A stretch of DNA of 35,967 nt from an uncultured Oscillospiraceae bacterium. GTDB taxonomy: Bacteria > Bacillota > Clostridia > Oscillospirales > Oscillospiraceae. A program made the position numbers and the translations under genes. The DNA is taken from contig CANRNU010000022.1 of NCBI GenBank assembly GCA_947632005.1, positions 1 through 35,967 on the forward strand. Reading direction: 5' to 3'. Of this stretch, positions 16,418-33,394 are shown one piece after another. The first letter of the stretch is position 1. Each line of letters starts with the position of its first letter. The notes beneath the pieces are model-generated. The model searched no databases. It was not told the DNA's origin and saw only the letters and a program-made list of their open reading frames with translations.

Positions 16418-16727
16418 AACGCACCTCGCTCAAAAGACTGCCGGACAGGCCGCCGGCAGGTATTCATTATACCATAGCCCCGCCGTCCCGCACAAGCACG
16501 GCGTATCCCGGGGCGTCCCCGGCAAAAAAAACATAAATAAAGCAAAATTGATCGCAAAACACGTATAGTTTTCTCTTGCCTTGCGGCCATTTGTGTGATA
16601 TACTTCACTATTATTGTAAACTGATAATCATGACCACAATGCAATTAATTGCACCAAATCGGTATTGGGAGATATCGTACCGCGGCAAGCGGGGGGGGTA
16701 TATTCTTCTTTCCAGGAGGAAGTTCTC
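16418..16727 (+). other. 310-bp intergenic leader region of the surface protein gene
   Basis: This stretch separates the divergent radical SAM and surface protein genes. It holds the promoter at 16576-16604 and an A/T-rich leader of about 115 nt ending in AGGAGGAAG. Apart from those I see no further gene or clear structured RNA. Confidence 0.6.
16576..16604 (+). promoter_or_regulatory. promoter of the giant surface protein gene
   Basis: TTGCCT (16576-16581), a 17-bp spacer and TATACT (16599-16604), in a markedly A/T-rich stretch, lie about 120 nt upstream of ATG 16728. Confidence 0.6.
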
Positions 16728-19700: not shown

Positions 19701-22700
19701 CGCCTCAGCGACATCCGGGTCTGGGTGGAGGAGTACGGCGAGTATCATGACGAGACCGGCGCCCTGGCGCCTGTGCGGAGCTATGACAGCTCCCTGTATC
19801 TGAACATCCCCGCCGCGGCGGTGCCCACCCAGCTGGCAGAGATCACCCTGGGGCCCAAGGGCGTGCTCAGCTACAAGACCAATCTGGAGGACAGGACGCA
19901 GTCCACCCCCATCCGCCTGTTTTACGGGGTGGGCGTGGATGACAGCGTGCTGCTGAAAAACGCCGCCGGCGAGCCCACGGGCGTGGACATCGCCAACATC
20001 CCGGTGGATTACCTGGAGAAACACCGGGACAACGACAGCCGGATATGGTTCATCTCCAACTATTACAGCGAGACCTACTATGACGGCTATGCCACCGACG
20101 CCACCCTCCGCACCCGGGGCGACCCCACGGTGAGCTTCTCCCCCAGCGCCGACAACCGTTACTATGTGGTCCAGAAGCCCCTGGCCCTCTATGCCCACGC
20201 CTATCGGGTGAAGGACGGCGAGCTGTCCCCTGTGGACAAGGCCGGCGGCAGCGTGACGGACTGGAATGACAAGACCAAGGGCGGCAACGGCAGCACCACC
20301 TGGGAGACCTATGAGGGCGTCGTCCAGTCCCCCGGCACCTGGGCCGGCGGCATCTACGGCGGAACGTTCCTGAACGAGGCCGATTTTGAGCTCAACGGAA
20401 CGGAACTGCCCGATGGCTGCATCGTGTTCCTGGAGGAGGACTTGCTGGACCACGTGACGTCTCTGGACGATTCCCAGTATAAGGAAGACTCTGTCTCCTT
20501 TGCCTCCGCCGACTACTTCTTCATGGCCTCGGATTACTACCTGCCCACCCCGGGCACCGTTGGCCGGGACCTGGAGGACAAAGAGGTGCCCGGGACCACC
20601 GGCGGCACGGCGGTGCAGCGGGTGGCCGCCCGGAAGGGCAATGAGTTCGGCTCCGGCCTGGGCTCTGACAACATCAAAAATGGCGATATGCTGTGCTGGA
20701 CCGACCTGAACAGCCACACCAGCACGGAGATACGCTATAACTCCCGCACGGAGACCGGCGATGATACCCGGGGCGAGCCCACCTATGAAAAGCTGGTGGG
20801 CAAGGAGACCAATACGCTGGATCGCGAAGATCTTATCCGCTATCTGAGCCAGACGTGCAAGGTTAAAGACGCTGAGGCCGAGGCCGACTACTGGCTGGGC
20901 CTGCGCAAGACCCTGGAGAACGTGACCATCGACGTGGACGGCGCGCCCACAAAGCTGGCCGACTTGTCGCAGGAGCAGTACAGCCAACACTTCAAGTGGG
21001 CGGTGGCCGCCAAGACCGGCGGCCTGCGCGTGGGCGACATGATCTCGAACATCGGCACCAAGGGCGACAACTGGGGCCAGACATATGCCGAGGCCAACCG
21101 CACCGAGACGGCCAACAACTACTATCTCCCCACCCTGTCCACCGCCTCCGATACCGGCGACAAGATCATCATCAACGACTACCTTGGCAACAATGGCCGG
21201 CTCTGGGTGTCGGATACCATGCTGCTGGTGACCAAGACCGTGGAGGCCAACGGCACGATCCCCGTGGACACCGAGGCGGAATTTGAGTTCCAGGTCTTCA
21301 TCCAGGGCATGGAGGGCCAGACCGTCAGCGCCGTCAAGGTCCAGCGGGACCCCTACACCGGCCTGTGGCGGCGGCGCATCAAAAGCATCGACGTGCTCAC
21401 CGACAACCGGAACCTGCTGCTGTCCTCCGACGGCAACAACCTGGCCGTCGTGGATGAAAACGGCGCCCCCTGGACCTCTGGCGAGCAATATGTGGTCTGG
21501 CTGGGCCCGCCCGACGCCGCCAGCGACAAGAACCGCTTCAACCTCTACACCGCCGCGGACGCGGGCGGGGACGTGTCCAGCAGGGGCACCCGAACGAACT
21601 ATCTGACCCAGGAGCAGTATGACGCCCTCCCGGACCCGGGCGACGAATACGCCGCTGTGACCGAAAGAGACGGACACCAGCCCGGCGACATGGAATTCTG
21701 GGTCAACGGGGAAGACGTGGGCCTGCGCCTCATCCCGATGAAGGACCTCCCGGGTGATGATGTCTGGGACGGCGCCTCGGAAGCCGGCCTGGCTGGAGGC
21801 ACCATAACACCGAATCACTTTGCCATGGCCGTCCTGAGGGCCGACCAGGATGAGCGCCTGCGTTCCGGCGTGCAGATCCTCAGCAGCTTCAACGTGCGCA
21901 GTGCCTACCTGACCCAGGACGTCAAGTTCGGACTGGATGGCGGCGCGAAGGACGTCTTCGACCAGACCGATTTCCAAAACCCGAGAAAGGACAGCAAGCT
22001 GTATACCCCGGAGGACATGTACCCCGCCACGGCCCAGTTCACCCTCCGGGACGGCGAGGGCCTGCTGTTCGTGGGCGTGGGCGATGTGGCCAGCTTCCGC
22101 GTCACTGAAAAGCTCACCAAATCGCAGATCGACCGGGGCTATATCCTGGATTGGGCCCGGCTGGTCCAGGCCGTGAACTATGTGGATTACACCCTGGCGG
22201 AGGAAAAGCAGACCCCCGGCGCCGGGGCCGGTACCACCGAGCGGGGCTACGCCGCAGTAAAGGGCTATTACGATTTCGATGGCGGCAGAGACCACCGGCC
22301 TGTCACCAACGTGAGAGAGAAGGAGGGCGAGCCCAACAACGCCGCCTACTTCGACAGAGACAACTATATCTACTCCCTGTACGGCGATACCACCAACCTG
22401 GAAAAGGCGGCCCACTTCTTCAACAAGCTGAACCCTTATACCCTGACCGTCGAGAAGAAGCTGGTGCCCCAGGAGGGCACGGAGCTCACCGACGAGGACT
22501 GGAACGTGGAATTCCCCTTCACGGTCGACTTCACCTTTGCCAACGGCGGTCCCCAGGAGCCGGAGGAACAGTGGATCTTCCCGGTGACCCGGTACCATAA
22601 GGACGGCGAGCCATATTCCGCCACCGGCATCCCCGCCGGCCAGGACGGCGAGGCCGATGACACGGACCGGACCGACCCCATCACCGGCTATATGCTGGTG

Positions 22701-25700
22701 AAGCAGGGCAACTCTGCGCTCGAGGGAGACGTCAGAGTCTATACCGCCTGGTTCGGCACGGTGAATGAGCTGGGCGAGTATGTCTGGGACGAAACGGGCT
22801 CCTTCCAGCTCAAGGGCGGGGAAAAACTGGTCATCTTCGACCTGCCCGCCGAGACCGGCTATACCTTCAAGATCACGGAGATGCCCACCATCGGCTATGT
22901 GCCGGACCCGGACCCCACGCTTCCCGCCGTGGTGGAGGGCACGGTGAACGCCTCCCTGGACAGCACCGTGAGCCCTCTGGCCAGCTTCACCAACGCGAAA
23001 AAGCCTCCTGAGCCCGCCTATCTGGACCTGGAGGTGACGAAGCAGTTCAACGAGCCCGCCGAGGGCGCCGAGGCGGTGAGCCGGGAGTTCACCATCGAGC
23101 TTGCCCCCCTCGGGAAAAACCCCGAGGGCGACCCCCTGGCCGGCGAGACCAAGACCGGCAAGGTCACGGTCACATCCGGCAGCAGCGACGTGCTGAAGCT
23201 GCTGGAGGACCTGGAGTTCACCAAGCCCGGCATCTATGATTACACCCTGCGGGAGGTCATCGGCGCCACCGACGGGGTGAAGTACGACCCCAACACCTAC
23301 CAACTGCGGGTGGAGGCGGTGGAGGTGCCCGCCACCGAGACGGAGGAGGCATATCTCCAGCTGAACGTCTCCCTTGTGAGCGCCTCCGGCGGCGACCTCA
23401 CCGTTACCCCCCAGGACGACCGGAACTATCGGGCGGAATTCAAGTCCTTCATCAACGAGTACACCCCCGACGCCGTCAACGTGGTCCTGGAGGGCAATAA
23501 GTCCATGGTCGGACGCGACATGCTGGCAGGTGAGTTCACCTTTGTCCTGACGCCTCTCAACAGCTTCTATACGGATGACCCCACGGCGCTGGCAATGCTC
23601 ATCAACGGGTCGGGGGAGGATATCCCCGACGGAGGAACGACCGGCGCCCAGGATAGCGAGGAGCCCGGCGACGGGGACAGTGAAGAGCCCAACACCGGGG
23701 ATGACAGCGAGCCCGATGCCGGGGACAGCGAAGGACCCGGCGACGGCGGCGACGTCCAGCCGAAGGATGGCGAGACGGAGAACAAGGACACGGAGCCGGA
23801 GCCCAGCGGCCAGGTCCCCGCGCCCGTAGCGGCGCCCGGGCCGGCGCATATGGCCGCCTCTGTCACGGCGTATATGGCGGCGCCCGCCCGCCGGTCGGCC
23901 CGTACCGCCCAGGCCGTCATGGCCCTCAGGGATGCGTCCGGAGAGGATGACCCGGAGGCCAGTGCGGCCCCGGAGGCCAGCGCAGCCCCGGAGGCCAGCG
24001 CGGCCCCGGAGGCCAGCGCAGCCCCGGAGGCCAGCGCGTCTCCGGACCCCGACGCATCCCCGGATCCCGACGCATCCCCGGATCCCGACGCGTCTCCGGA
24101 CCCCGACGCATCCCCGGACCCCGACGCATCCCCGGACCCCGACGCGTCTCCGGACCCCGATGCGTCTCCGGACCCCGACGCATCCCCGGACCCCGACGCG
24201 TCTCCGGACCCCGACGCGTCCCCGGACCCCAGCGCGTCTCCGGACCCCAGCGCGTCTCCGGAGCCTGTGAACGCGATGTCCCTGGGCGAGCCGATACCCA
24301 TCCATGATATCCCCATGCCCGACACGGGCACGGTGAGCACCGGCCCGGATTCTGTCCGCGCCACCACGGTGAACGATGAGGCCGGGCGCTTCCGCTTCGG
24401 CAACATCCAGTTCACGCAGCCCGGCATCTACTACTACCAGATCATGGAGGAGTATAAGCCCGGCGGCACCGTCCAGCAGCTTCCCATCCGGATCTACTTC
24501 GTGACCGTCACGGTCACCAGGGACGGGGCGGGCGCGCTGACGGCCACCCGGCAGTATTTCAACGAGCTGTGGGAGCCCATAGACACCCTGCCCGAGTTTA
24601 TCAACATCGAGACCAAGCCGGAGAAGACGGAGCCGGACCCCGGACCGAATGTGTTCGTGCAGGTGGGCGAGGTCATCACCTACCGGGTCACCTGGTTCAA
24701 CGATGCGGAGCTGGGCAAGGAAGATTATATGGTCTACGTCCGCGATAAGCTGGACCCCGGCGTGACCTTTGACACCGGCTTTGCCAAGGCATATATGGGC
24801 GAGGCGCCCGACGGCAGGGAACTGCCCTTCGACGGGGTATACGATGCGGCGTCCCATACCATCAACTGGACCATCGAGGACACACAGCCCGGCGACTACG
24901 GCTATGTGGAATTCAAGGTCACAGTCAACGAAAAGGCGAAGCGGACCTGGGATTATTCCCCCGCGGAGGACGATCCCGACACCGGTGAGGACACCCCCGG
25001 CGGTCCCGGCGACGTGACCGACGAGGAGGACGCCATCCTCCACAACCAGGCCGCCGTCCGGGTGGACAACGGCCCGTGGGAGTGGACGGAGAAGATCGAC
25101 AACCCCACATGGGAGCCTGAAAAGAAGTCCGACCCGCCCAGCAAGAGCACCATGAAGGTGGGCCAGACCATCACCTATCAGGTCACGTGGCGCAACTATC
25201 TGGAGGACAAAGCGGCGGTCACCGTCACCGACGAGCTGGATCCCGGCCTGACCTTTGTGGAGGGCAGCGCCGTATCGTTCACCGGCTCGGCCAGCGCCGG
25301 CGGCACGGACATGAACATCCCCGGCGTCTATGATCCCGTCAGCCGCGTCATCACCTGGAGCCTGGGCGACCAGGGTCCCGGCGCCCACGGATATGTGCAG
25401 TTCCAGGCCACGCTGAATGAGAACGCGCGGCTGGACGACGGCACCGTGGTGAACGAGGCGGACGTTCAGGTCAGCAACAAGCACCACCAGACCAACCAGG
25501 TGGAGCACTACGCGGACGGCCAGCTGACCGTCACGAAGACCGTCGCCGGCAGTGACGGCGACGTCAGCAAGGACTTCACCTTCACCATTACCCTCACCAG
25601 GCCGGAGACCATGGCCGAGGCCGATTGGCCCGCCTGGCCGAATGTCTGCGAGTACACCGGCGCGGGCGGCAAGGAGAGCGGCACGCTCACCTTCACCTGG

Positions 25701-26084
25701 AACGGGAGCGGCTATACCTCTCAGGAGTTCACGCTGCGCCATGGCCAGAGCATCACCGTCAGCGGCCTGCCGGTGGGCGCCGGGTATACCGTCGCCGAGA
25801 AGGAGGCCAACGCGGACCGCTACACCACCAGCGCCGCCGGCGCGGTGGGTCAGATCCCGGCGGGAGCCCCGGCAACAGCCGCGTTCACCAACACCAGAAA
25901 CGCCGAGACGCCGCCTCCCTCTCCCTCCACGCCTACCGAGCCCACCGCAACGCCTTGGAGCTCGCCCAACACCGGCGATGAGGCCCGTCCGGGCCTGTGG
26001 CTGGCGCTGATGGGCCTGTCCCTCCTGGGACTGGGCTGGGCCGGCGGCACGGCCCTGGGGCGCAGGAAAAAACACGACCGATAA
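16728..26084 (+). CDS. giant sortase-anchored surface protein (VWA, isopeptide pilin-type, DUF11-like and Cna-B-like domains)
   Basis: The 3118-residue product starts at ATG 16728, which has AGGAGGAAG upstream. Residues 1-39 are a signal peptide with cleavage after AYA. A von Willebrand A domain follows, with MIDAS DMSGS at 149-153 and a MSDGG block near 442; it is enlarged by insertions and ends near 775. A long region of beta-rich modules leads to pilin isopeptide-type domains at about 2100-2237 and 2245-2624, the second split by a low-complexity insert. Two DUF11-like domains follow (about 2637-2760 and 2795-2918), then a Cna-B-like domain (about 2932-3056). The C-terminus has SPNTG (3079-3083), a hydrophobic segment and RRKKHDR, a sortase signal of the (S/P)PxTG kind. 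It is probably a wall-anchored adhesin or pilus-tip-like protein. No sortase or other pilin gene is in the window. Domain edges are estimates. Confidence 0.88.
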   Translation: MWGVRSKNRGRRLLAGLLCLVMVLSVFDGTGLLAGRAYAAETPNVHDREADPDTMDTYMDALLSDANGSRYAGRVWTDKTVFAYEDSQGQATSTHFDGVQTIKLDWDTDGYDGSVGFDTDFAHVFSAVASSQVVNEYPPSPIDLVIVFDMSGSMGQDTRYTIDGYGNMYMPHADMSDGFPSEGVPMQERIDNSRVKATLNAINNTIDGLMKQNPQNRVAVCGYGANATVLLPLAHYRHREGTNTPYLSVGGMETLYHPSDLRYDDTTNQWMWMNNRDTCYTVVVNGEDNEYNTYTGPLSESNRDNTWTTVAQRTVSNNALTSSGEHVKAFPGAWDADGKTPLPTFKTQSQEVYNGSVAEKDFDETKEKEYDHGSPKLIAAMKPTQGLDADDYVGYFTNTQGGIYLAYKQLANSEATTYAEMLETTHQLSTVARVPAAIIMSDGGANFAFNEMGDGSSPYAAKDWYARYGQKTLEAFDENSFDNSYLNDNSWLTALPGGAPEGVTDGRDLDYQHRLGTDGYRPNGNPGDEWYKVFLPGEDTLGEGWKGLHGIYNAGADYYQDGTLSTRPEWECAGVLYNSDTELGSTGGTVLEVLLTASYMSRVVKEHYEGGWEKYNATKDSRVPLSTFTMNVDTRHVPQWGRWRLYPTLDPKHNALDDITESGDSWNNDLKKVGEVYGGDSWGSDGDNFAHTYRAFPSLKGHWDNWKSGSQAQPKIGGGGVQTINIDPAPDDGITYMAGGGDNVNVTQEEIVANIAYNDEFYDVDSEKLADIFEEILTIILGKVFVPVSGDNDAGVGDAVTYQDPIGDLMEVKNQSITANGSTDDMALLLFGKMHNMTRTGVYDFQWNDKYMAATGKGQGENPMEMGWYRGEPTIEAEYAPANSLPPDCSSAADAWAQGWVFRLNYTTLASYVPISGGAPDKPENLSEQLKNTVFTIYRFSENEDERNALHRNPVFGTVPEDLNKQWNEYKASTGSYPADDKMYQDVPGVFRLSDIRVWVEEYGEYHDETGALAPVRSYDSSLYLNIPAAAVPTQLAEITLGPKGVLSYKTNLEDRTQSTPIRLFYGVGVDDSVLLKNAAGEPTGVDIANIPVDYLEKHRDNDSRIWFISNYYSETYYDGYATDATLRTRGDPTVSFSPSADNRYYVVQKPLALYAHAYRVKDGELSPVDKAGGSVTDWNDKTKGGNGSTTWETYEGVVQSPGTWAGGIYGGTFLNEADFELNGTELPDGCIVFLEEDLLDHVTSLDDSQYKEDSVSFASADYFFMASDYYLPTPGTVGRDLEDKEVPGTTGGTAVQRVAARKGNEFGSGLGSDNIKNGDMLCWTDLNSHTSTEIRYNSRTETGDDTRGEPTYEKLVGKETNTLDREDLIRYLSQTCKVKDAEAEADYWLGLRKTLENVTIDVDGAPTKLADLSQEQYSQHFKWAVAAKTGGLRVGDMISNIGTKGDNWGQTYAEANRTETANNYYLPTLSTASDTGDKIIINDYLGNNGRLWVSDTMLLVTKTVEANGTIPVDTEAEFEFQVFIQGMEGQTVSAVKVQRDPYTGLWRRRIKSIDVLTDNRNLLLSSDGNNLAVVDENGAPWTSGEQYVVWLGPPDAASDKNRFNLYTAADAGGDVSSRGTRTNYLTQEQYDALPDPGDEYAAVTERDGHQPGDMEFWVNGEDVGLRLIPMKDLPGDDVWDGASEAGLAGGTITPNHFAMAVLRADQDERLRSGVQILSSFNVRSAYLTQDVKFGLDGGAKDVFDQTDFQNPRKDSKLYTPEDMYPATAQFTLRDGEGLLFVGVGDVASFRVTEKLTKSQIDRGYILDWARLVQAVNYVDYTLAEEKQTPGAGAGTTERGYAAVKGYYDFDGGRDHRPVTNVREKEGEPNNAAYFDRDNYIYSLYGDTTNLEKAAHFFNKLNPYTLTVEKKLVPQEGTELTDEDWNVEFPFTVDFTFANGGPQEPEEQWIFPVTRYHKDGEPYSATGIPAGQDGEADDTDRTDPITGYMLVKQGNSALEGDVRVYTAWFGTVNELGEYVWDETGSFQLKGGEKLVIFDLPAETGYTFKITEMPTIGYVPDPDPTLPAVVEGTVNASLDSTVSPLASFTNAKKPPEPAYLDLEVTKQFNEPAEGAEAVSREFTIELAPLGKNPEGDPLAGETKTGKVTVTSGSSDVLKLLEDLEFTKPGIYDYTLREVIGATDGVKYDPNTYQLRVEAVEVPATETEEAYLQLNVSLVSASGGDLTVTPQDDRNYRAEFKSFINEYTPDAVNVVLEGNKSMVGRDMLAGEFTFVLTPLNSFYTDDPTALAMLINGSGEDIPDGGTTGAQDSEEPGDGDSEEPNTGDDSEPDAGDSEGPGDGGDVQPKDGETENKDTEPEPSGQVPAPVAAPGPAHMAASVTAYMAAPARRSARTAQAVMALRDASGEDDPEASAAPEASAAPEASAAPEASAAPEASASPDPDASPDPDASPDPDASPDPDASPDPDASPDPDASPDPDASPDPDASPDPDASPDPDASPDPSASPDPSASPEPVNAMSLGEPIPIHDIPMPDTGTVSTGPDSVRATTVNDEAGRFRFGNIQFTQPGIYYYQIMEEYKPGGTVQQLPIRIYFVTVTVTRDGAGALTATRQYFNELWEPIDTLPEFINIETKPEKTEPDPGPNVFVQVGEVITYRVTWFNDAELGKEDYMVYVRDKLDPGVTFDTGFAKAYMGEAPDGRELPFDGVYDAASHTINWTIEDTQPGDYGYVEFKVTVNEKAKRTWDYSPAEDDPDTGEDTPGGPGDVTDEEDAILHNQAAVRVDNGPWEWTEKIDNPTWEPEKKSDPPSKSTMKVGQTITYQVTWRNYLEDKAAVTVTDELDPGLTFVEGSAVSFTGSASAGGTDMNIPGVYDPVSRVITWSLGDQGPGAHGYVQFQATLNENARLDDGTVVNEADVQVSNKHHQTNQVEHYADGQLTVTKTVAGSDGDVSKDFTFTITLTRPETMAEADWPAWPNVCEYTGAGGKESGTLTFTWNGSGYTSQEFTLRHGQSITVSGLPVGAGYTVAEKEANADRYTTSAAGAVGQIPAGAPATAAFTNTRNAETPPPSPSTPTEPTATPWSSPNTGDEARPGLWLALMGLSLLGLGWAGGTALGRRKKHDR
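23955..24260 (+). repeat. 17-unit 18-bp tandem repeat inside the surface protein gene
   Basis: Seventeen in-frame six-codon units run without a break: five of EASAAP/EASASP type, ten DPDASP and two DPSASP. Codon variants (GCA/GCG, TCC/TCT, CCG GAC/GAT) distinguish the units. The encoded stretch is extended, Pro-rich and acidic in its larger part, like a wall-spanning stalk. Its length probably varies between strains by slippage. Confidence 0.97.
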
Positions 26085-26100
26085 GACGCTGAAACACACG

Positions 26101-26131
26101 CACGGCGGATGGCCTCAGGCCATCCGCCGTG
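26101..26131 (+). terminator. hairpin after the surface protein gene
   Basis: A 14-bp perfect stem (CACGGCGGATGGCC / GGCCATCCGCCGTG) with a TCA loop lies 16 nt after the stop. It lacks a T-run on either strand, so its terminator role is likely but not typical. Confidence 0.6.
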
Positions 26132-26194: not shown

Positions 26195-27031
26195 TCACAG
26201 GGCCTCCAGAACCCGTCGGATGTCCGCCCCGATGCAGACAGACCGCGGGGCGATCTCCGCCGGCGCGCCGGCCCTGCTCCGGTTCACGCAGGCATATGTG
26301 GCCCTCGGGTTTTCCGCCGTCATCCGCCAGAAGGGGTACTTGATGATACCCGGGGTGTTGTACCCCACGCCCAGCTCCCAGAACAGGATGCGCCGGCCCC
26401 GGCGCGTTCGGAGAAACCGGCTGTACCGCTCCGCCGCGGCGTGCCAGCCCGCGTCCTCCACGAACCGGTCGTCGGCCCGGAGATTCGTCGTGAGGGGCCG
26501 CCCGCAGCGGGGGCACACCGGCAGAAGCCCGGAGGGCACGCGCATGTCCTTCTGCTCTTCTACCATGCGGCGGATGACGCCCTCGTTGTCAAAGGTCTCC
26601 TGACAGCAGGGCTCCGAGCACTGGAACAGGCCGTAATCGCCCTGGGTATAGAACAGCCGTTCCTTGTCCGCGCCAGCCTTCTGGAAGCAGTGGTCCACGT
26701 TGGTGGTGAGGATGAAATAGTCCTTGTCCCCGATGAGCTCCAGTACCCGCTCGTACACCGGCTCCGGCGGGGCCATATAGCGGTTGATAAGGATGTAGCG
26801 GCTCCAATAGGCCCAGAATTCCTCCGGCGCCGGGAAGGGGTAGAAGCCGCCTGAGTACATGTCCCGGAAGCCGTATTTGGCGGCGAAATCGGAAAAAAAC
26901 CGGTAAAACCGCTCCCCGTCGTAGACAAAGCCCGCCGCGGTGGACAGGCCGGACCCCGCGCCTACCACCACCGTCTCCGCCCCATCCAGGGCGGCCCGCA
27001 ATTTTCGGATGTTTTCCGCAAAGGTCTCCAT
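26195..27031 (-). CDS. Sir2-family NAD-dependent enzyme, class M (SirTM)-like
   Basis: This 278-residue sirtuin has the NAD-binding GAGSGLSTAAG (about residues 24-34), TTNVDHCFQKAG in place of the usual TQNID...H motif, and a Cys pair set (CSEPCC, then CPRCG) for a structural zinc. Where canonical deacetylases have the catalytic HG, this has YTQGDYG, with Gln instead of His. As I recall the literature, that Gln is a feature of SirTM proteins, which ADP-ribosylate rather than deacetylate; this was not searched. GGAGG precedes ATG 27031, which begins 2 nt after the upstream stop. It is the last gene of the ACGX peptide operon, and the macrodomain, GcvH-like and lipoate ligase partners known for SirTM are absent here. 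Confidence 0.85.
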   Translation of the reverse strand: METFAENIRKLRAALDGAETVVVGAGSGLSTAAGFVYDGERFYRFFSDFAAKYGFRDMYSGGFYPFPAPEEFWAYWSRYILINRYMAPPEPVYERVLELIGDKDYFILTTNVDHCFQKAGADKERLFYTQGDYGLFQCSEPCCQETFDNEGVIRRMVEEQKDMRVPSGLLPVCPRCGRPLTTNLRADDRFVEDAGWHAAAERYSRFLRTRRGRRILFWELGVGYNTPGIIKYPFWRMTAENPRATYACVNRSRAGAPAEIAPRSVCIGADIRRVLEAL

Positions 27032-27033
27032 GA

Positions 27034-27648
27034 TTACCTCCGTACCACCGCCCCTACGGGACATACCGTGAGACAATTGCCGCAGTGCAGGCAGTTCTCC
27101 TGCCGGATGGCGTAGGGCGTCCCTGGTTCGATGCACCGCTGGGGACAGTTTTTCAGACACCTGCCGCAGCCGGCGCATGCATCGGAAATGACATAGCCTT
27201 TTTTCATGACGTTCCCCGCCCCGATGGTATAGCTCTCCCGGAAAATGGGGTTGACGCCTAGGTTGAAATACTCGATCTGGCCGTCCCGTATCTCAAAGAC
27301 GATGCCCGCCAGCTTCCTTGTATCGCCGGGATAGACGTTGGAAAGGTAGGGCTGTTCGGCAAAGATCGTGTCGATCCATCTCTCCTGCTCATCTGACCGC
27401 ACAGGGACCGCCCTGCCGGCCAGCCGGACCATCTCTTTATACCGGGTATATCCTAACACCTGCACCCGGCCATCCGCAAGCAGTTCCCTGCAAAAATCCT
27501 TCCCCTTCGCGGTGAAAAAGAGCATCCGGTCCGGCGCATAGTGGATGGCGGAGATATTGCGTATCTGGGGTGCGCCGGATGCGTCCACTGTGGCAAAGGC
27601 CAGCACGCCCACATATTCCAGCTTCTTCAAACAAGTCTGTGCATCCAT
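27034..27648 (-). CDS. FMN-binding pyridoxamine-oxidase-fold protein fused to a 2[4Fe-4S] ferredoxin
   Basis: The 204-residue protein has an N-terminal PNPOx-like FMN-binding split-barrel (about 1-140: GVLAFATVDASGAPQIRNIS and FFTAKGKDFCRELL). Two ferredoxin Cys clusters follow, CAGCGRCLKNCPQRC and CLHCGNCLTVCP (about 155-200). Such fusions are putative flavin-dependent reductases wired to Fe-S electron transfer. ATG 27648 is used, with GAGGGAG upstream; a TTG at 27663 is the alternative. It starts 11 nt after the nitroreductase stop and ends 2 nt before the sirtuin start, so it is co-translated. It could feed electrons to the radical SAM enzyme or the nitroreductase, but this is inference. 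Confidence 0.85.
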   Translation of the reverse strand: MDAQTCLKKLEYVGVLAFATVDASGAPQIRNISAIHYAPDRMLFFTAKGKDFCRELLADGRVQVLGYTRYKEMVRLAGRAVPVRSDEQERWIDTIFAEQPYLSNVYPGDTRKLAGIVFEIRDGQIEYFNLGVNPIFRESYTIGAGNVMKKGYVISDACAGCGRCLKNCPQRCIEPGTPYAIRQENCLHCGNCLTVCPVGAVVRR

Positions 27649-27659
27649 CGTTTTCTCCC

Positions 27660-28244
27660 TCAAAACCTAAGTACACGCCCGTCTTTTCTGGGCTTGGGCG
27701 TGGGGTGGGCGTCGCCCTCTCTCGGATAGCCCAGCAGCAGCTGCATCGCCGCGTAATAGTCCGGGCGGATGGCCCACTTTTTCAGTATCTCCTGGCCGTA
27801 GGGGTCCGCGAAAGCCGTCCAGCCCTGGCCGATGTAGCAGGAGCCCACCCCCAGTGCATCCGCCATGAGCATCATGTTTTCCGCCGCGCAGGCGCAGTCC
27901 TCCGCCGCGAACAGAAAGTTCTTCGGTGCGAAAAAAGTGATGACCGTGGGCGCGTCGTAAAAGGCGTTGACGAGGTTCGCATCGTCCGCGATGCTGGGCT
28001 GCTCCCGGGACACATAACGGGTGGCCGTGGCCATACTGGGGTTGGAGTTGGCCCGTTTGATCTTCCCCAGACGCTCATTCACTTCCCTGTCCTGGCACAC
28101 CGCGAACAGCACCCCCTGCCGTCCGCCCGCGCTGGGGGCGTACAGCCCTGCTTCCAATATCTTTTGAAGCGCATCTTCGTCTACCTGCCGGGCGTCGAAC
28201 CGGCGGATGGCCCGCCGGTGTTTCATCAATTCCAATAATTCCAT
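27660..28244 (-). CDS. nitroreductase-family flavoprotein
   Basis: This 194-residue protein starts MELLELMKHRRAIRRFDARQV, the classic nitroreductase opening whose Arg and Ser bind FMN. It continues with GLYAPSAGGRQGVLFAV and ends in LLLGYPREGDAHPTPKPRK. Family members use FMN and NAD(P)H to reduce nitro, quinone or enone groups; some act as oxidases on peptide backbones in RiPP pathways. GGAGG at 28255-28259 supports ATG 28244, which lies 1 nt after the radical SAM gene stop. Being in the ACGX operon, it may modify the peptide or serve as redox partner, but this is inference. Confidence 0.9.
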   Translation of the reverse strand: MELLELMKHRRAIRRFDARQVDEDALQKILEAGLYAPSAGGRQGVLFAVCQDREVNERLGKIKRANSNPSMATATRYVSREQPSIADDANLVNAFYDAPTVITFFAPKNFLFAAEDCACAAENMMLMADALGVGSCYIGQGWTAFADPYGQEILKKWAIRPDYYAAMQLLLGYPREGDAHPTPKPRKDGRVLRF

Positions 28245-28245
28245 A

Positions 28246-29337
28246 TCAGGATACCTCCTTCCAGCATTGGGGGTCGGGGGCATAGAAATCGCCATTGGTC
28301 CCTTTCGCCACAGCAGGGCAGCCCCGACACCAGGGCATGAGCTCGCACTTGGCGCACTTTTCAAATCTTGTGTAATCCCGGTACTGCTCCATCTGACACA
28401 CCCACACGTCCGCCAGCCGGTCCTCAAAAATGTTGCCCACCTTGCTGTCCGCCGCCCGGCGGCAGGCGTACACGTCCCCGGTGGGCAGGATGGTGATGTG
28501 GCAGTTGCCGCAGTTGCAGCCGCCGTAGATCATGCCCTCTTGGGCGTCTGTCGGGATGGTGAACGCGCCCGTCTCGTACTCGTAAAGGGTCCAGAGGTGA
28601 TCCTTCTTGTTGAAGTAGGTCTTGCACCCCTGGGCCTCGTATTCCTTGAATTTTCTGTCGCACACCGCCAGCAATTCCCGGTATTCCCGGGCCGTCATAG
28701 AGGCGTCCAGGTCCCCGCCGCTGGGTACATACCGGGAGAAGGCGAACACATCCGCGCCCGCCGTCACCGCCGCGTCGATGATGCCGGGGACTTCCATGCG
28801 GTTGGTCCTGGAGACGGTGGTCATGATAACGGCCCGGATGCCCGCCTGCTGGATGCAGCCGATCTTCTCCAGCGTGCAGTCATAGGAGCCGGGCTTGCGG
28901 AACCAGTCGTGGGTCTGGCGGAGGCCGTCCAGGGACAGCTGGTACTTCTCGCAGCCCAGGGCCTTCAGCTCCCGGCACACCTGGTCGTTCAGATGGAAAG
29001 GGTTGCCCAGGATGGTAAAGGGCACATCGTGCTCATGCAGCAGCTCCAGCAGCCGCCAGAAGTCCGGGTGCAGGATGGGGTCGCCGCCGGTGATGTAAAA
29101 ATAGGGCATCCGGTCATAGACCTGGCAGAAGTCCAGGCAGTTATAAAACGTATCCTCCATCTGCGCCCAGGTCATGGAGTCCAGATGCTGATGCTCCCCG
29201 CCGGAGAAGATATAACAGTGCTTGCACCGCTGGTCACACTGGTCCGTGATGTGCCACTGGAAGGAAAAGTATTGCTTCATGTCGTCGTCACAAGCTCCAT
29301 ATTCTTCGCTTCCGCGCATGCGCGAAAGCTCATACAT
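28246..29337 (-). CDS. radical SAM/SPASM peptide-modifying enzyme, ACGX system
   Basis: The product (363 residues from ATG 29337) has the radical SAM motif CDQRCKHC (Cys34, Cys38, Cys41) and a C-terminal SPASM domain with clustered Cys (GGCNCGNCHITILPTGDVYACRR; CAKCELMPWCRGCP), the layout of enzymes that modify ribosomal peptides with extra Fe-S clusters. The adjacent ACGX-repeat gene matches my recollection of a family named 'radical SAM/SPASM protein, ACGX system'; this was not searched. GAGGAG at 29348-29353 favours ATG 29337, though ATG 29280 (344 residues, beginning MKQYFSFQWHITDQC) is a serious alternative. The gene is followed 1 nt later by the nitroreductase. The expected reaction is a radical modification at or near the peptide's Cys residues, not known in detail. 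Confidence 0.9.
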   Translation of the reverse strand: MYELSRMRGSEEYGACDDDMKQYFSFQWHITDQCDQRCKHCYIFSGGEHQHLDSMTWAQMEDTFYNCLDFCQVYDRMPYFYITGGDPILHPDFWRLLELLHEHDVPFTILGNPFHLNDQVCRELKALGCEKYQLSLDGLRQTHDWFRKPGSYDCTLEKIGCIQQAGIRAVIMTTVSRTNRMEVPGIIDAAVTAGADVFAFSRYVPSGGDLDASMTAREYRELLAVCDRKFKEYEAQGCKTYFNKKDHLWTLYEYETGAFTIPTDAQEGMIYGGCNCGNCHITILPTGDVYACRRAADSKVGNIFEDRLADVWVCQMEQYRDYTRFEKCAKCELMPWCRGCPAVAKGTNGDFYAPDPQCWKEVS

Positions 29338-29355
29338 TCCGCTGCGACTCCTCTT

Positions 29356-29383
29356 CCCCACAAAGTCAGGCGACTTTGTGGGG
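29356..29383 (-). promoter_or_regulatory. 12-bp hairpin adjoining the radical SAM ribosome binding site
   Basis: CCCCACAAAGTC pairs perfectly with GACTTTGTGGGG around a 4-nt loop, ending 2 nt before the GAGGAG of the radical SAM gene. It could limit read-through or translation of the enzyme relative to the peptide. Confidence 0.6.
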
Positions 29384-29410
29384 CCCTGAGTGCAACGCCA
29401 AATGAGTTGT

Positions 29411-29434
29411 TCCCGGCGGGATGACCCGCCGGGA
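29411..29434 (-). terminator. hairpin directly after the ACGX peptide gene
   Basis: A 10-bp perfect stem (TCCCGGCGGG / CCCGCCGGGA) with a 4-nt loop begins 6 nt after the peptide stop. No T-run follows, so it may stabilise the short peptide mRNA or act as a partial terminator, giving more precursor than enzyme. Confidence 0.6.
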
Positions 29435-29440
29435 GTGGTC

Positions 29441-29626
29441 TTACTTACCGGACGCCCCACAGGCAGAACCGCAGGCCGCGGGCTTTTCCTCGGGTTTGTC
29501 TGCCGCACCGCACGCCGTGCCGCAGGCCGCGGGTTTCTCTTCCGGCTTGTCCGCCACGCCACAGGCCGTGCCGCAGGCGGAGGCCGCCTTGCCCTGGGCC
29601 CAACCGACCAGATCAGAAAGTGCCAT
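29441..29626 (-). CDS. ACGX-repeat Cys-rich precursor peptide
   Basis: This 61-residue peptide begins MALSDLVGWAQGKAAS and then has three pairs of ACGX motifs: ACGTACGV, ACGTACGA and ACGSACGA. The pairs are joined by two near-identical linkers (ADKPEEKPA), a 17-residue repeat at protein level and 51 bp at DNA level. It has six Cys in all. ATG 29626 is preferred because AAGGAGG (29635-29641) lies 8 nt upstream; other in-frame ATGs lie further upstream without a good site. No signal peptide, double-Gly leader or protease site is visible. It is the first gene of an operon with a radical SAM/SPASM enzyme, nitroreductase, FMN/ferredoxin protein and sirtuin, so it is inferred to be the ribosomal substrate of the radical SAM enzyme. 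Confidence 0.85.
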   Translation of the reverse strand: MALSDLVGWAQGKAASACGTACGVADKPEEKPAACGTACGAADKPEEKPAACGSACGASGK

Positions 29627-29678: not shown

Positions 29679-29706
29679 ATTATAGGGACATTTTCAGACC
29701 CCACAA
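29679..29706 (-). promoter_or_regulatory. promoter of the ACGX operon
   Basis: Minus-strand TTGTGG (29701-29706), a 16-bp spacer and TATAAT (29679-29684) lie about 50 nt upstream of the peptide start. Confidence 0.65.
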
Positions 29707-29733
29707 GTACGCACAAAAAGGTGGGGTACGCAC
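29707..29733. promoter_or_regulatory. GTACGCAC direct repeats, candidate operator
   Basis: Two exact copies of GTACGCAC (29707-29714, 29726-29733), 19 bp apart start to start (two helical turns), sit between the divergent promoters and abut the -35 of the ACGX operon. The adjacent HxlR-type protein is the obvious candidate binder, by inference from position only. Confidence 0.5.
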
Positions 29734-29747
29734 TTTTTTGTAACGGA

Positions 29748-29776
29748 TTGACAGGGATAGGCGTATGCAGTAAAAT
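29748..29776 (+). promoter_or_regulatory. promoter of the hxlR-like gene
   Basis: TTGACA (29748-29753), a 17-bp spacer and TAAAAT (29771-29776) lie 40 nt upstream of ATG 29817. Confidence 0.75.
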
Positions 29777-29816
29777 TTAAATGCAGCATTCGATCCTGAC
29801 TGTATGGAGGCGCGAC

Positions 29817-30152
29817 ATGAAAACCAAAGCTGAGCTGCTGCCCGAATGTCCCGTGGCAACGACGGTCCAACTGATCGGCAACAAGTGGAAACTGCTCATC
29901 ATACGCAATCTCATGGTCCGCCCCTGGCGGTTCAATGAACTGCAGCGGGACCTGGACGGCATCAGCCAGAAGGTCCTCACCGACAGCCTGCGGTCCATGG
30001 AGGCAGACGGGCTCATCACCCGCACGGTCTACCCGGAGGTGCCGCCCCGGGTGGAATACGCCCTGTCGGACCTGGGCCGGAGCCTCCAGCCCATCCTGGA
30101 CGCCATGCGGGCCTGGGGCGAGGAATACCGCGCCGCCAAGCTGGCGGAATAA
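29817..30152 (+). CDS. HxlR-family transcriptional regulator
   Basis: This 111-residue winged-helix protein has the HxlR layout: an N-terminal Cys (ECPVATTVQLIGNKWKLLIIRNLM, about residues 9-32), the recognition helix region ISQKVLTDSLRSMEADGLI and a wing (RTVYPEVPPRVEYALSDLG). HxlR/YodB-type proteins often sense quinones, aldehydes or disulphide stress through this Cys. ATG 29817 has GGAGG at 29806-29810. It is transcribed with the downstream flavodoxin-fold reductase and divergently from the ACGX operon, so it may control both. Confidence 0.92.
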   Translation: MKTKAELLPECPVATTVQLIGNKWKLLIIRNLMVRPWRFNELQRDLDGISQKVLTDSLRSMEADGLITRTVYPEVPPRVEYALSDLGRSLQPILDAMRAWGEEYRAAKLAE

Positions 30153-30174: not shown

Positions 30175-30792
30175 ATGAAGGTATTGATGATCAACGGCAG
30201 CCCCCGCAGGAACGGTAACACGGCGGTCGCCCTGCGGGAGATGGAACAGGTCTTCGCCCGGGAGGGCATTGAGACCCAGACCGTCCAGGTGGGAAACAAG
30301 CCCATCCGCGGCTGCATCGCCTGCAACGCCTGTGCCCAGCGGGGCAAATGCGCGTTTGACGACGCGGTCAACGAGCTGGCGCCGGTATTTGAGCAGAGCG
30401 ACGGCCTGGTGGTGGCCAGTCCGGTCTATTACGCCTCTGCCAACGCCACGCTCATCGCGTTGCTGGACAGGCTCTTTTACAGCACGGGCTTTGACAAGAC
30501 CATGAAGGTGGGTGCCAGCGTAGTGGTGGCCCGGCGGGGCGGCCTCACGGCGACTTTTGACGAGCTGAACAAGTATTTCACCATCTCCGGCATGCCCGTG
30601 GCCTCCAGCCAGTACTGGAACGGTGTCCATGGCCGGGAGCCGGGCGAGGCGGCGCAGGATGCGGAGGGCCTGCAGACCATGCGGACGCTGGCCCGGAACA
30701 TGGCCTTTCTCATGAAGAGCATCGCCCTGGGCCGGGAAAAGTACGGCCTGCCGGAACAGGAGCCCTTCCAGGCGACGAACTTCATCCGCTGA
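30175..30792 (+). CDS. flavodoxin-fold NAD(P)H-dependent reductase
   Basis: This 205-residue protein begins MKVLMINGSPRRNGNT, the FMN phosphate-binding loop of the NADPH-dependent FMN reductase/iron-sulfur flavoprotein family. It contains GCIACNACAQRGKC (about residues 43-56), whose Cys may bind an Fe-S cluster, and VVASPVYYASANATLIALLDR. Such enzymes reduce quinones, azo compounds or act as electron carriers. ATG 30175 follows AAGGGAG, 22 nt after the HxlR gene stop, so the two are an operon. Pairing with an HxlR regulator suggests induction by an electrophile. It may serve the same redox circuit as the divergent ACGX operon. Confidence 0.9.
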   Translation: MKVLMINGSPRRNGNTAVALREMEQVFAREGIETQTVQVGNKPIRGCIACNACAQRGKCAFDDAVNELAPVFEQSDGLVVASPVYYASANATLIALLDRLFYSTGFDKTMKVGASVVVARRGGLTATFDELNKYFTISGMPVASSQYWNGVHGREPGEAAQDAEGLQTMRTLARNMAFLMKSIALGREKYGLPEQEPFQATNFIR

Positions 30793-30878: not shown

Positions 30879-31370
30879 TCACTCCGCGGTGAACCGCCAG
30901 AGCCTGGCCTGGTCCTCTGGGGCGGCGTAGCCGATGCCCACCCGGGGCGAGGCGGCCACATGCGCCGGCGCATAGCCGTCGTCCTCCAGGGAGAGGGCGT
31001 CGCCCAATCGGGTGTCGTTCAGGCTCTTGTCGATGGCCAGGAATTTTGTCACCCGGCCCGGGCCGGAGGCCCCCTCCACGCCCCGGATGAGCACGGCCTG
31101 GGGGTCGTTCTCCGGGCCGGTCACCAGATTCAGCATCCAGTGGATGCCGTAGCACAGATACACATAAATGGTCCCCGCGGGACGGTAGAGGACCTCCGTC
31201 CGCTTGGTGCGTCCGTGACAGGCGTGACAGGCGGTGTCGCTCTCGCCGAAATACGCCTCCGTCTCCGTGATGCGGACCCGGCGCACGGTCCCGTCCGGCA
31301 TGCGGCGGACCAGCACTTTGCCCACCAGGGCCCGGGCGGCCTCCGGCGCGGGCAGGTCAAGGATATTCAT
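30879..31370 (-). CDS. 3-methyladenine DNA glycosylase (AAG/MPG type)
   Basis: The 163-residue protein is an alkyladenine glycosylase of the AAG fold, which excises alkylated purines from DNA. The signature RITETEAYFGESDTACHA (about residues 33-50) and RPAGTIYVYLCYGIHWMLN (about 63-81) are diagnostic, with the catalytic Glu in the first. GAGGAT lies before ATG 31370. The start lies inside the apbE gene (14-bp overlap). It is shorter than most family members (about 190-200), lacking part of the C-terminal end, but the core is intact. Confidence 0.92.
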   Translation of the reverse strand: MNILDLPAPEAARALVGKVLVRRMPDGTVRRVRITETEAYFGESDTACHACHGRTKRTEVLYRPAGTIYVYLCYGIHWMLNLVTGPENDPQAVLIRGVEGASGPGRVTKFLAIDKSLNDTRLGDALSLEDDGYAPAHVAASPRVGIGYAAPEDQARLWRFTAE

Positions 31371-32397
31371 AGGTATAATCCTCACTGTTCTCGGTAAACC
31401 CGTCCGCCAGACCATCTGTGACGACGACCCGTCCGTCCTCTGTCACCAGCACCAGCTCCACATCCCCGTGGGCGGCGCAGTAGGCCAGGGCCTCCTCCTC
31501 GCCCAACACGAACAGCGCCGTGGACAGGGCGTCGGCCCGGGCCCCGTCCTCTGTCACCACCGTGACGGAGGCAAGACTGTTGTCCACAGGACAGCCCGTG
31601 GCCGGGTCCAGGATGTGGATATAGGTCTGGCCGCCCTCCTCAAAGTACCGCTGATAGCCTCCGGAGGTGACCACCGCCGTCTGGCCCACGGATAGGGTGC
31701 CCAGATAGCTCCCCGTATCGTTGGGGTCCGTGATCGCCACCTGCCAGGGCTTGCCGTCCGGGCGGGTCTGGCCCAGGGTCTGGACATTGCCGCCCAGGGA
31801 GAAGACGGCGCGCTCCACCCCGGCTGCCCCGGCGGCCTCTATCGCCTTCTGGGCGGCGTAGCCCTTGGCCACCGCTCCCAGGGAGACGGCCATGCCCTCC
31901 GGCAGCGCCGCGGTCCCGGCGCCGGCGTTCAGCTCGATGCCATCCGTGTCCTTGGCGGCCAGCAGCCTGTCCAGCTCCGCCTGGCTCGGCACCCGGTAGT
32001 CCCCGGTAGTGAAGCCCCAGGCCAGGATGACCGGGTACAGGGCCGGGTCCAGGGCGCCCCCGGTCTCCCGGCCGACGGCCAGGGCCGTGTCCAGTACGGC
32101 CAGGCAGTCGGCAGACACGTCCACCGCCGTTCCCGCCCCGGCGTTCAGGGCGGCAACGGAAGAGCCCTCCTGCTCCGGGTCCAGGTCCGCCGCGAGACCG
32201 TTGATGACCTCCGCGGCGGCGGCCAGAGCGGCGTCGCCCTCGTCCCCGTAGGCGGTCAGGAGCATCACCGTGTCCATGGCGAACAGCTGCTTTTCATGCT
32301 TCTCGTCCTGTCTGTTCCTGCCGCACCCGGGAAGGAGCAGGGCCAGGCTCAGGACCAGGGAGACGAGCCGGTCACAGCTCCGCCTTATGGGCCTCAT
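31357..32397 (-). CDS. apbE: FAD:protein FMN transferase lipoprotein (ApbE)
   Basis: ApbE attaches FMN to Thr/Ser of exported flavoproteins, using FAD. The 346-residue product has a lipoprotein signal with the lipobox LLPGC (Cys25), then the conserved blocks FAMDTVMLLTAYG, SLGAVAKGYAAQKA, SLGGNVQTLG and HILDPATGCPV. GGGAG precedes ATG 32397, which overlaps the aldo/keto reductase gene end by 26 bp. Its flavinylated target (for example an Rnf/Nqr or FMN-bind protein) is not in this window. Confidence 0.94.
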   Translation of the reverse strand: MRPIRRSCDRLVSLVLSLALLLPGCGRNRQDEKHEKQLFAMDTVMLLTAYGDEGDAALAAAAEVINGLAADLDPEQEGSSVAALNAGAGTAVDVSADCLAVLDTALAVGRETGGALDPALYPVILAWGFTTGDYRVPSQAELDRLLAAKDTDGIELNAGAGTAALPEGMAVSLGAVAKGYAAQKAIEAAGAAGVERAVFSLGGNVQTLGQTRPDGKPWQVAITDPNDTGSYLGTLSVGQTAVVTSGGYQRYFEEGGQTYIHILDPATGCPVDNSLASVTVVTEDGARADALSTALFVLGEEEALAYCAAHGDVELVLVTEDGRVVVTDGLADGFTENSEDYTYEYP

Positions 32398-33394
32398 AGA
32401 ACTCCCAATAATCTTTCAGCATGTACTTGAGCACGTTGGGGGTATCCAGGTGATACGGGCACTTGGACTTGCACCGGCCGCACTCCACACATTCTTTGAT
32501 CTTGTTCATCTTGGCCTGCCACTCCGGAGTGAAGTAGGGCCGCCAGGGGCTGCGGCGGATGAGCATGTCCATCCGGGCGCAGTTGCGGATCTCGATGCCC
32601 TTGGGGCAGGGCATACAATAGCCGCAGCTGCGGCAGAACTGTCCGCCCAGGTCCTTTTTATCCGCGTCGATGACCGCCTGGAGCTCTCCGTCCAGGGCCG
32701 GGTCTTCCTCTGCCAGAGCCAGCCACTGTTCCAGCTCCTCCATGGTCTGCACGCCGTAGATGGGTACGACGCCGTCCTGCTCCCGCATGAAGGCATGGAC
32801 CGCCCGGGCGTTGCTCAGCATGCCCCCGGCCAGGGCCTTCATGGCGATGAAGCCCATGCCGGCGTCCCGGCAGGACTGGACCAGGGCGAATTCCTCCGGA
32901 CTGGACAGGTAGCTGAAGGGGTACTGTAGGGTCTCGAACCGGCCGGAGGCCACCGCTTCCTCCGAGAACCGGATGGAGTGGCTGGTGACGCCGATATGCC
33001 GGACCCAGCCCTTGGCCTTGGCCTCTTCCGCCGCCGCATAGGCGCCGTTGTCGATCTCGTCCCAATTGGAGACCATGTGGAATTGGAACACGTCGATGTA
33101 GTCGGTCTTCATCCGCTCCAGGGACAGCTGGATGTGCTTGGCCACCGTGTCGTGATCCCGGCCCGTGCTCTTGGTGGAGATCACGATGTCCCTGCGCACG
33201 TCGGCCAGGGCCAGGCCGATCTTCTCCTCAGAGTCTGTGTAGGCGTTGGCGGTGTCGAAATAGCGGATGCCGCCCTCATAGGCCCGGCGCAGGATGCGCA
33301 CCGCCTCGTCCTTGTCCCGCCGCTGGATGGGCAGGGCGCCGAAGGCCGGCTTCGTCACCGTCAGGCCGGTCTTTCCAAGTTTTAAGTACCGCAT
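32372..33394 (-). CDS. aldo/keto reductase with C-terminal Fe-S motifs
   Basis: This 340-residue protein has the aldo/keto reductase barrel (GLTVTKPAFGALPIQ; RYFDTANAYTDSEEKIG with the catalytic Asp/Tyr; VRHIGVTSHS). It ends in CRSCGYCMPCP and CVECGRCKSKCP, a two-cluster ferredoxin-like tail (about 262-318). This subtype is common in anaerobic clostridia; the substrate is unknown. AGGTG precedes ATG 33394. It is the first gene of a three-gene overlapping operon with apbE and the DNA glycosylase. Confidence 0.92.
   Translation of the reverse strand: MRYLKLGKTGLTVTKPAFGALPIQRRDKDEAVRILRRAYEGGIRYFDTANAYTDSEEKIGLALADVRRDIVISTKSTGRDHDTVAKHIQLSLERMKTDYIDVFQFHMVSNWDEIDNGAYAAAEEAKAKGWVRHIGVTSHSIRFSEEAVASGRFETLQYPFSYLSSPEEFALVQSCRDAGMGFIAMKALAGGMLSNARAVHAFMREQDGVVPIYGVQTMEELEQWLALAEEDPALDGELQAVIDADKKDLGGQFCRSCGYCMPCPKGIEIRNCARMDMLIRRSPWRPYFTPEWQAKMNKIKECVECGRCKSKCPYHLDTPNVLKYMLKDYWEFYEAHKAEL

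Follow-up and report, generated by a model that had tools for sequence, protein, structure and literature searches.

An ACGX-repeat peptide operon with redox enzymes and a class M sirtuin in an uncultured Oscillospiraceae bacterium

The operon and its relatives

The DNA analysed here, called the window below, is a stretch of 35,967 nucleotides from an uncultured Oscillospiraceae bacterium (GenBank assembly GCA_947632005.1, contig CANRNU010000022.1), whose assembly amounts to 2.32 Mb and is 77.6% complete. Five genes on its minus strand, between positions 26195 and 29626, encode a small cysteine-repeat peptide of the ACGX family, a radical S-adenosylmethionine (SAM) enzyme, a nitroreductase, a flavin-ferredoxin fusion protein and a class M sirtuin (SirTM), and a regulator gene of the HxlR family is transcribed divergently from them. 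That this ACGX operon is real and conserved is well supported: it is not a chance arrangement, because the peptide and the radical SAM enzyme both pass the curated cut-offs of their families and the gene order recurs in relatives. The features are listed in the following, with start codons chosen by us from the open frames.

29441..29626, minus strand: ACGX-repeat precursor peptide, 61 aa with six ACG motifs (TIGR04341, 60.4 bits, cut-off 28)
29281..29440, minus strand: intergenic hairpins between the peptide and the radical SAM gene (minimum free energy -78.4 kcal/mol, z -6.4)
28246..29280, minus strand: putative radical SAM/SPASM peptide maturase, 344 aa (TIGR04340, 599 bits, cut-off 400)
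27660..28244, minus strand: nitroreductase-family flavin mononucleotide (FMN) oxidoreductase, 194 aa (PF00881, E 2.7e-25)
27034..27648, minus strand: fusion of a PNPOx-like flavin domain and a 2x[4Fe-4S] ferredoxin (PNPOx-ferredoxin), 204 aa (PF01243 and Fer4 families)
26195..27031, minus strand: SirTM, 278 aa (PDB 5a3a, E 1.7e-68; TQGDYG motif)
26101..26131, minus strand: terminator-like hairpin at the operon end, 14 pairs, 11 of them GC
29781..30152, plus strand: divergent HxlR-family regulator (PF01638, E 4.9e-33)
29690..29760, no strand assigned: shared promoter region with repeated GTACGCAC-type elements, likely the HxlR operator (regex site, also in relatives)
30175..30792, plus strand: accessory NADPH-dependent FMN reductase-like gene 3' of the HxlR gene (PF03358, E 6.1e-27)

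The gaps between the genes past the radical SAM gene measure 1, 11 and 2 nt, and 160 nt separate the peptide gene from the radical SAM gene. A preliminary description of this DNA had given the same five genes, coordinates and gaps, all of which were reproduced from the sequence; its inventory was correct for the five genes and had overlooked the divergent HxlR gene as well as a zinc-dependent macrodomain gene that is present in relatives. The hairpin 3' of the sirtuin gene supports a terminator without proving it, because shuffled sequences yield 3.8 terminator-like sites in the region by chance, compared with five found.

Relatives were drawn from two sources. Of 300 genomes from the same family, 25 have a match above the TIGR04340 cut-off, and 28 regions were taken from the family matches, two of them below the cut-off through a truncated gene; a further 80 named loci ranked highest among at least 580 relatives. 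Together with the window, and without the exact duplicates L083 and L087, a total of 107 loci was obtained, 78 of which belong to these top-ranked 80 and form a non-random set of close relatives in which near-duplicates may remain. By title, the named loci belong mostly to gut Clostridia, with single metagenome-assembled genomes (MAGs) labelled Sphaerochaetaceae, Flexilinea and Succinivibrio. MAGs from gut and rumen make up most of the sources, and the sample label Lapin, taken as rabbit, is frequent among them. Neighbouring genes were counted on those 74 loci in which the sequence continues for 4.8 kb or more past the radical SAM start, leaving out the 33 of 107 with less.

All 74 loci carry, downstream of the radical SAM gene, a redox gene of at least one of three families, namely nitroreductase (47 loci), PNPOx-ferredoxin (50 loci) or an MDR quinone-reductase-like protein. 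Either of the first two is present in 59 loci, and the other 15 have the MDR gene in that place, whose product resembles the PIG3 quinone reductase with 135 bits, below the cut-off of that family. All eight cluster cysteines of the PNPOx-ferredoxin are invariant across 15 aligned sequences. A link between the peptide and flavoproteins had been proposed beforehand together with a comparison of neighbourhoods, in which ACGX loci that never carry such genes would have spoken against it; a redox enzyme of one of the three families was found in every locus.

The link to the sirtuin, for which the same comparison had been suggested, recurs as well: SirTM genes lie downstream in 44 of the 74 loci and zinc macrodomain genes in 42, with both in 40, either in 46 and neither in 28, and the number of linked loci rises to 48 if upstream copies are included. 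Locus L141 was not counted as linked, as its upstream macrodomain is of a non-zinc type. Wherever SirTM or the zinc macrodomain is encoded downstream, a redox enzyme precedes it, and the commonest order, seen in 22 loci, is nitroreductase, PNPOx-ferredoxin, zinc macrodomain, SirTM. Among neighbouring pairs less than 400 nt apart, genes abut (-30 to +40 nt) in 54 of 55 cases from radical SAM to nitroreductase, 40 of 42 from nitroreductase to PNPOx-ferredoxin, 24 of 24 from PNPOx-ferredoxin to zinc macrodomain and 29 of 41 from zinc macrodomain to SirTM, the last pair overlapping with a median of -26. The FMN reductase-like gene stands beside the HxlR gene in a minority of the relatives' loci, among the matches listed.

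Peptide, maturase and regulator

The peptide of the window consists of the leader MALSDLVGWAQGKAAS and three ACGxACG blocks, with two Asp for six Cys in the core. The family name used in the preliminary description is borne out by the TIGR04341 and TIGR04340 cut-offs, both of which were passed. BLAST found homologous peptides in 92 of 100 loci, and a scan of open frames gave them in 96 of 107; the counts given here retain one misframed peptide, that of L106, and a few others whose assigned starts make them too long or too short. The 96 precursors share a leader of about 16 residues, which starts with MAL in 83 of them, and from residue 19 onward they are composed almost only of A, G, C, K, P, E, D, S and T. 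A Gly follows 577 of their 588 cysteines, and 567 of these 577 are preceded by Ala. Position +4 from these 577 cysteines is Asp in 311, Cys in 202 and Glu in 30 cases; Asp or Glu therefore occupies it in 341 (311 Asp, 30 Glu) of the 375 without a Cys there, compared with an Asp background of 6.3% in the peptide core. The divergent L059 peptide retains the CX3D spacing in five of five cases. A second ACG-ACG match in the DNA of the window's own genome (L004) proved to be an unrelated frame of 76 residues.

Strong RNA structure in the gap between the peptide and the radical SAM gene is kept among the relatives (z below -2 in 83 of 95 homologous gaps). These hairpins may serve in processing or attenuation that allows the peptide to be made in excess over the enzyme.

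Radical_SAM and SPASM are the only Pfam domains of the putative maturase; an RRE domain, expected for leader binding in the available text of the PapB paper (PMC9413430), was not found in the Pfam search. After TIGR04340, the best profile over the whole catalytic region is that of the SbtM maturase (TIGR04082), which the enzyme matches with 163.9 bits, below the cut-off of 350; the match starts only at position 198 of 516, the N-terminal part being missing. The PapB profile NF047865 is matched still more weakly (64 bits, cut-off 340). According to the parts of the literature available to us, SbtM makes thio(seleno)oxazoles (PMC11002830), and PapB forms Cys-Asp thioethers at CX3D motifs, accepting Asp, Glu and nested links (PMC9413430). 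Judged from the sequences, thiooxazole and CX3D thioether chemistry are both possible for the ACGX peptide. A search for SbtM homologues over E 1e-60 gave none in 398 genomes of the phylum and is uninformative, because none of the 14 controls matched either.

The HxlR gene diverges from the operon in 87 of the 93 loci with at least 900 bp upstream, and a C-[PA]-V-x-x-T motif lies close to the N terminus in every one of the 93 HxlR sequences. In the window protein its cysteine is Cys23 in the longest frame or Cys11 if translation starts at MKTKAEL. The regulator matches the YybR structures 4a5m and 4a5n, with the cysteine motif aligned to the start of the YybR and HxlR structures, and by the aligned ranges the window cysteine falls on position 14 of 4a5m, if the alignment is ungapped. 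We take YybR to be HypR, presumably sensing through Cys14. HypR, YodB and HxlR sense disulfides, quinones or formaldehyde via such a cysteine. The divergent intergenic region contains a GTACGCAC-type regex site in 81 of 88 loci and the best 8-mer in 83 of 88, and these repeats are likely the HxlR operator.

The sirtuin and the zinc macrodomain

The sirtuin of the window has no Pfam SIR2 match at E 0.01, and its only PDB matches at E 0.001 are 5a3a (E 1.7e-68) and 8rsn (E 1.9e-21). We take these to be the class M sirtuin of S. pyogenes and a fungal macrodomain-sirtuin fusion (cf. PMC4518038, PMC11490716). Its TQGDYG motif has QG in place of HG, and the same replacement occurs in 52 of the 55 SirTM proteins of ACGX loci (50 by pattern, L090 and L114 by reading), the other three being fragments of 96-129 aa. 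In the available text of Rack 2015 (PMC4518038), QG for HG is the mark of class M, which lacks the catalytic His and for which deacylase activity was not observed. The motif and the two PDB matches thus sustain the assignment to class M made in the preliminary description. Its suggestion that the sirtuin deacylates the peptide or a regulator was dropped, because class M sirtuins have neither the catalytic His nor, as published there, deacylase activity. In-frame stops suspected in two SirTM genes proved unfounded: the TGA in G270 is an ordinary stop, and the stretch matched by BLAST in G231 contains none.

The macrodomain of the relatives is of the zinc-dependent type. The L037 protein matches NF003163 with 366 bits (cut-off 272), its nearest solved structures being 8rsi and 5kiv, and the zinc-loop signature is present in 49 of 51 macrodomain sequences; the exceptions are the L141 protein, a canonical macrodomain upstream of its ACGX locus, and L142, a near-miss of the pattern. 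SirTM is the kind of sirtuin that attaches ADP-ribose to proteins, and the zinc macrodomain is the eraser that pairs with it; the macrodomain accompanies SirTM in 40 of the 44 SirTM-bearing loci, and the window, L047, L066 and L100 are those without it. The window's genome encodes a relative of it elsewhere (G000:C5:36432-37199, L194), 58% identical to that of L037 and with no sirtuin beside it. The only SirTM match of this genome is the window gene; writer and eraser thus lie at separate sites.

Two other arrangements of these genes were seen. Several genomes carry two or three divergent SirTM-like genes in tandem, at about 180-254 bits (G122:C101:1579-3251, G246:C1:12245-13923, G143:C207, G271:C262, G237:C25, G294:C5:46661-48336 and C1:108977-110649, G182:C22). 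SirTM/zinc macrodomain pairs without an ACGX peptide lie near a divergent HxlR gene in G278:C16 (L191), G001:C14 (L184), G015:C2 (L201) and G095:C159 (L203), some of them with a PNPOx-like or FMN-reductase gene, and may represent a smaller redox module.

A proposed role and its rivals

The closest known parallel is the extended SirTM operon of Staphylococcaceae and Lactobacillales, with S. aureus and S. pyogenes as examples, which comprises GcvH-L, LplA2, Zn-Macro, SirTM, OYE and LLM. In the available text of two papers (PMC4518038, PMC11490716), the lipoylated carrier, two flavin oxidoreductases, SirTM and Zn-Macro of the GcvH-L operon are thought to cooperate in redox stress, and the existence of other SirTM targets is posed as an open question. 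The ACGX loci share with this operon SirTM, the zinc macrodomain (in the 40 of 74 relatives' loci that have both), oxidoreductases, a small sulfur-bearing protein and the redox theme. They differ from it in that a radical SAM-modified peptide would take the place of lipoylated GcvH-L and the radical SAM enzyme that of the lipoate ligase, and in that the oxidoreductases are a nitroreductase, PNPOx-ferredoxin or MDR protein; GcvH-L and LplA2 were not among the operon genes in profile searches, and no genome-wide search for LplA2 was made.

By analogy with the GcvH-L operon, the ACGX peptide is cast here as a sulfur carrier. We tentatively propose, with a probability just short of even, that the operon is an HxlR-controlled, stress-responsive intracellular system of anaerobic gut bacteria, built around a cysteine-repeat peptide of the ribosomally synthesized and post-translationally modified kind (RiPP), with redox enzymes and a SirTM/zinc macrodomain switch. 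The HxlR cysteine would sense electrophile or disulfide stress, and the radical SAM enzyme would oxidise or cross-link the ACG cysteines, yielding a thiooxazole as with SbtM or a Cys-Asp thioether as with PapB. The peptide would be abundant and confined to the cytosol, acting there as a thiol, soft-metal or redox carrier, with which, or with the stressor itself, the nitroreductase, PNPOx-ferredoxin and MDR proteins would exchange electrons. SirTM would ADP-ribosylate the modified peptide or an operon partner and thereby hold the system off, and the zinc macrodomain would release it by removing the ADP-ribose. The more specific claim, that SirTM and the macrodomain reversibly ADP-ribosylate the modified peptide or its enzymes and make the RiPP an NAD-gated intracellular redox or electrophile carrier, is doubtful. 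If true, this would be, as far as we know, the first case of a RiPP controlled by reversible ADP-ribosylation, and SirTM would have its first target besides GcvH-L.

A serious rival, which we consider possible and clearly below an even chance, is that SirTM and the zinc macrodomain form a redox-stress module of their own, which has no more than the HxlR-controlled transcript in common with the ACGX genes and acts on another cellular protein than the peptide or its enzymes. The linkage itself argues against it: the genes lie tightly spaced within one transcript, and linkage downstream in 46 of 74 loci compares with a chance expectation estimated at well below 1% per locus. On a tree of 104 radical SAM proteins, 73 of them scored, the linkage requires 20 changes, at least 10 of which are forced by starred branches, and its clustering does not exceed that of shuffled labels; the label on a second tree, of 81 SirTM proteins, requires 17 changes, at least five of them forced, with the long-branch rows L204 and L205 included. 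The pair has joined or left the ACGX operon repeatedly. Across the 300 family genomes, a SirTM of at least 400 bits accompanies ACGX in 25 of 27 genomes, compared with 57 of the 273 genomes that lack ACGX (p 8.7e-14, kinship ignored), the 27 being those with a whole or truncated radical SAM match (truncated in G222 and G257).

Several observations weigh against a role of the pair within the ACGX system. Both trees are quick ones with many weak branches, on which gain and loss are indistinguishable. In the 25 genomes over the TIGR04340 cut-off, SirTM lies at the ACGX locus in 10, elsewhere or on another contig in 13 and was not found in two, although in some of the 13 the ACGX contig simply ends. 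The 57 ACGX-free genomes with SirTM mark the pair as an autonomous module, and ACGX-free pairs in genomes of the same bacterial family stand in part beside HxlR, FMN reductase or PNPOx-like genes. Neither gene is found downstream at 28 of the 74 loci, and the window locus itself lacks the macrodomain. The share of sites with Asp or Glu at +4 does not differ between peptides with linked SirTM/zinc macrodomain genes (148 of 164 sites) and those without (80 of 88; mean per peptide 0.89 and 0.90, p 0.86), so that this residue, considered as a candidate ADP-ribose acceptor, is not marked as one and was rejected.

As a strong GcvH match exists in only eight of the 27 ACGX genomes (eight of the 20 that are at least 90% complete), GcvH is not a general SirTM target in this group, and it was discarded for the window locus in particular, whose genome, 77.6% complete, gave no match to GCV_H. 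This scarcity does not single out the peptide as the target, because a strong match was likewise present in only five of 20 ACGX-free SirTM genomes tested. The other 15 of these 20 tell against the proposed switch as well, since SirTM genomes that have neither ACGX genes nor a strong GcvH match indicate that the pair may have an unrelated target.

Other rivals concern the peptide. It could be a cytosolic buffer of soft metals such as copper, acting through thiooxazole or thiolate groups as an anaerobe counterpart of the bufferins, with the redox enzymes and SirTM answering metal or thiol stress. The proximity of the maturase to SbtM, the thio(seleno)oxazole former (PMC11002830), the nearly invariant A-C-G flanks, the copper binding of thiooxazole bufferins described in the available text of PMC12452194 and a copper-ATPase-like cluster, named by eye in five of 106 loci, are consistent with this; we nevertheless hold it to be unlikely, as the enzyme stays far under the SbtM cut-off, bufferins act in the periplasm and are the products of a different class of enzymes, metal genes are not widespread among the neighbours and the regulator is of the HxlR type. 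Alternatively, the peptide could be a ranthipeptide with Cys-Asp thioethers in CX3D, like PapA modified by PapB; its role would then be structural or in signalling, not that of a redox carrier. The enrichment of Asp and Glu at +4, the L059 peptide and the tolerance of PapB for Asp, Glu and nested links (PMC9413430) speak for such links, whereas the weak PapB profile match, the 202 of 577 cysteines followed by Cys instead of Asp at +4, the two Asp for six Cys in the window core and the missing RRE domain speak against them, and this reading is likewise improbable. An exported antimicrobial or signalling RiPP is very improbable. Radical SAM RiPPs are often exported, and a MATE-like transporter cluster lies at six of 106 loci; the earlier statement that exporter and protease are lacking has to be qualified by that transporter and otherwise agrees with our survey: the 26 neighbour clusters found most widely across the 106 loci, inspected by eye from partial sequences, included none that we recognised as a peptide exporter or peptidase. 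In addition, GG occurs within the first 20 residues of only eight of the 96 precursors, and the core is extremely hydrophilic.

Compared with known peptide systems, the window pair resembles the curated ACGX system (TIGR04340/TIGR04341) in passing both cut-offs; the NCBIfam entries name the peptide and enzyme only. With freyrasin (PapA/PapB) the peptide shares the repeated Cys-Asp spacing and differs from it by its A-C-G flanks and many CX3C pairs; with the bufferins, copper RiPPs with thiooxazoles made by an MNIO enzyme and acting in the periplasm, it shares cysteine-rich precursors, a sulfur heterocycle (proposed for ACGX) and a stress function. No description of the ACGX pair, or of its link to redox, HxlR, SirTM or zinc macrodomain genes, was found in the open-licence literature. 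The ACGX class may be listed in the 2022 radical SAM RiPP atlas by Clark and Seyedsayamdost. The recurrence of the arrangement in relatives suggests that this conserved operon, which combines known kinds of components, is an undescribed redox-stress system. A radical SAM/peptide pair that was, as far as found, only a database name thereby gains a biological context, and the operon family narrows the search for SirTM targets to a few co-transcribed candidates, in gut anaerobes that in many cases have no strong GcvH match. It may also reveal an intracellular RiPP for redox, electrophile or metal defence.

Among the other neighbour clusters of the 106 loci, named in the same way, are a histidine kinase-like protein (13 loci) and a response regulator (11 loci); the copper-ATPase-like gene, for example upstream at L044, occurs too rarely for a judgement. 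In the window, a surface protein of 3139 residues (FctA, DUF11, DUF7601; long DPDAS/PEASA repeat tract) is encoded convergently to the operon at 16665-26084 on the plus strand. On the minus strand, past the HxlR and FMN reductase pair, an ApbE FMN transferase adjoins a fusion of an aldo-keto reductase and a 4Fe-4S domain (31357-33394), and a Fic/DOC-family protein, possibly another nucleotide-transfer enzyme, is encoded at 34435-35517.

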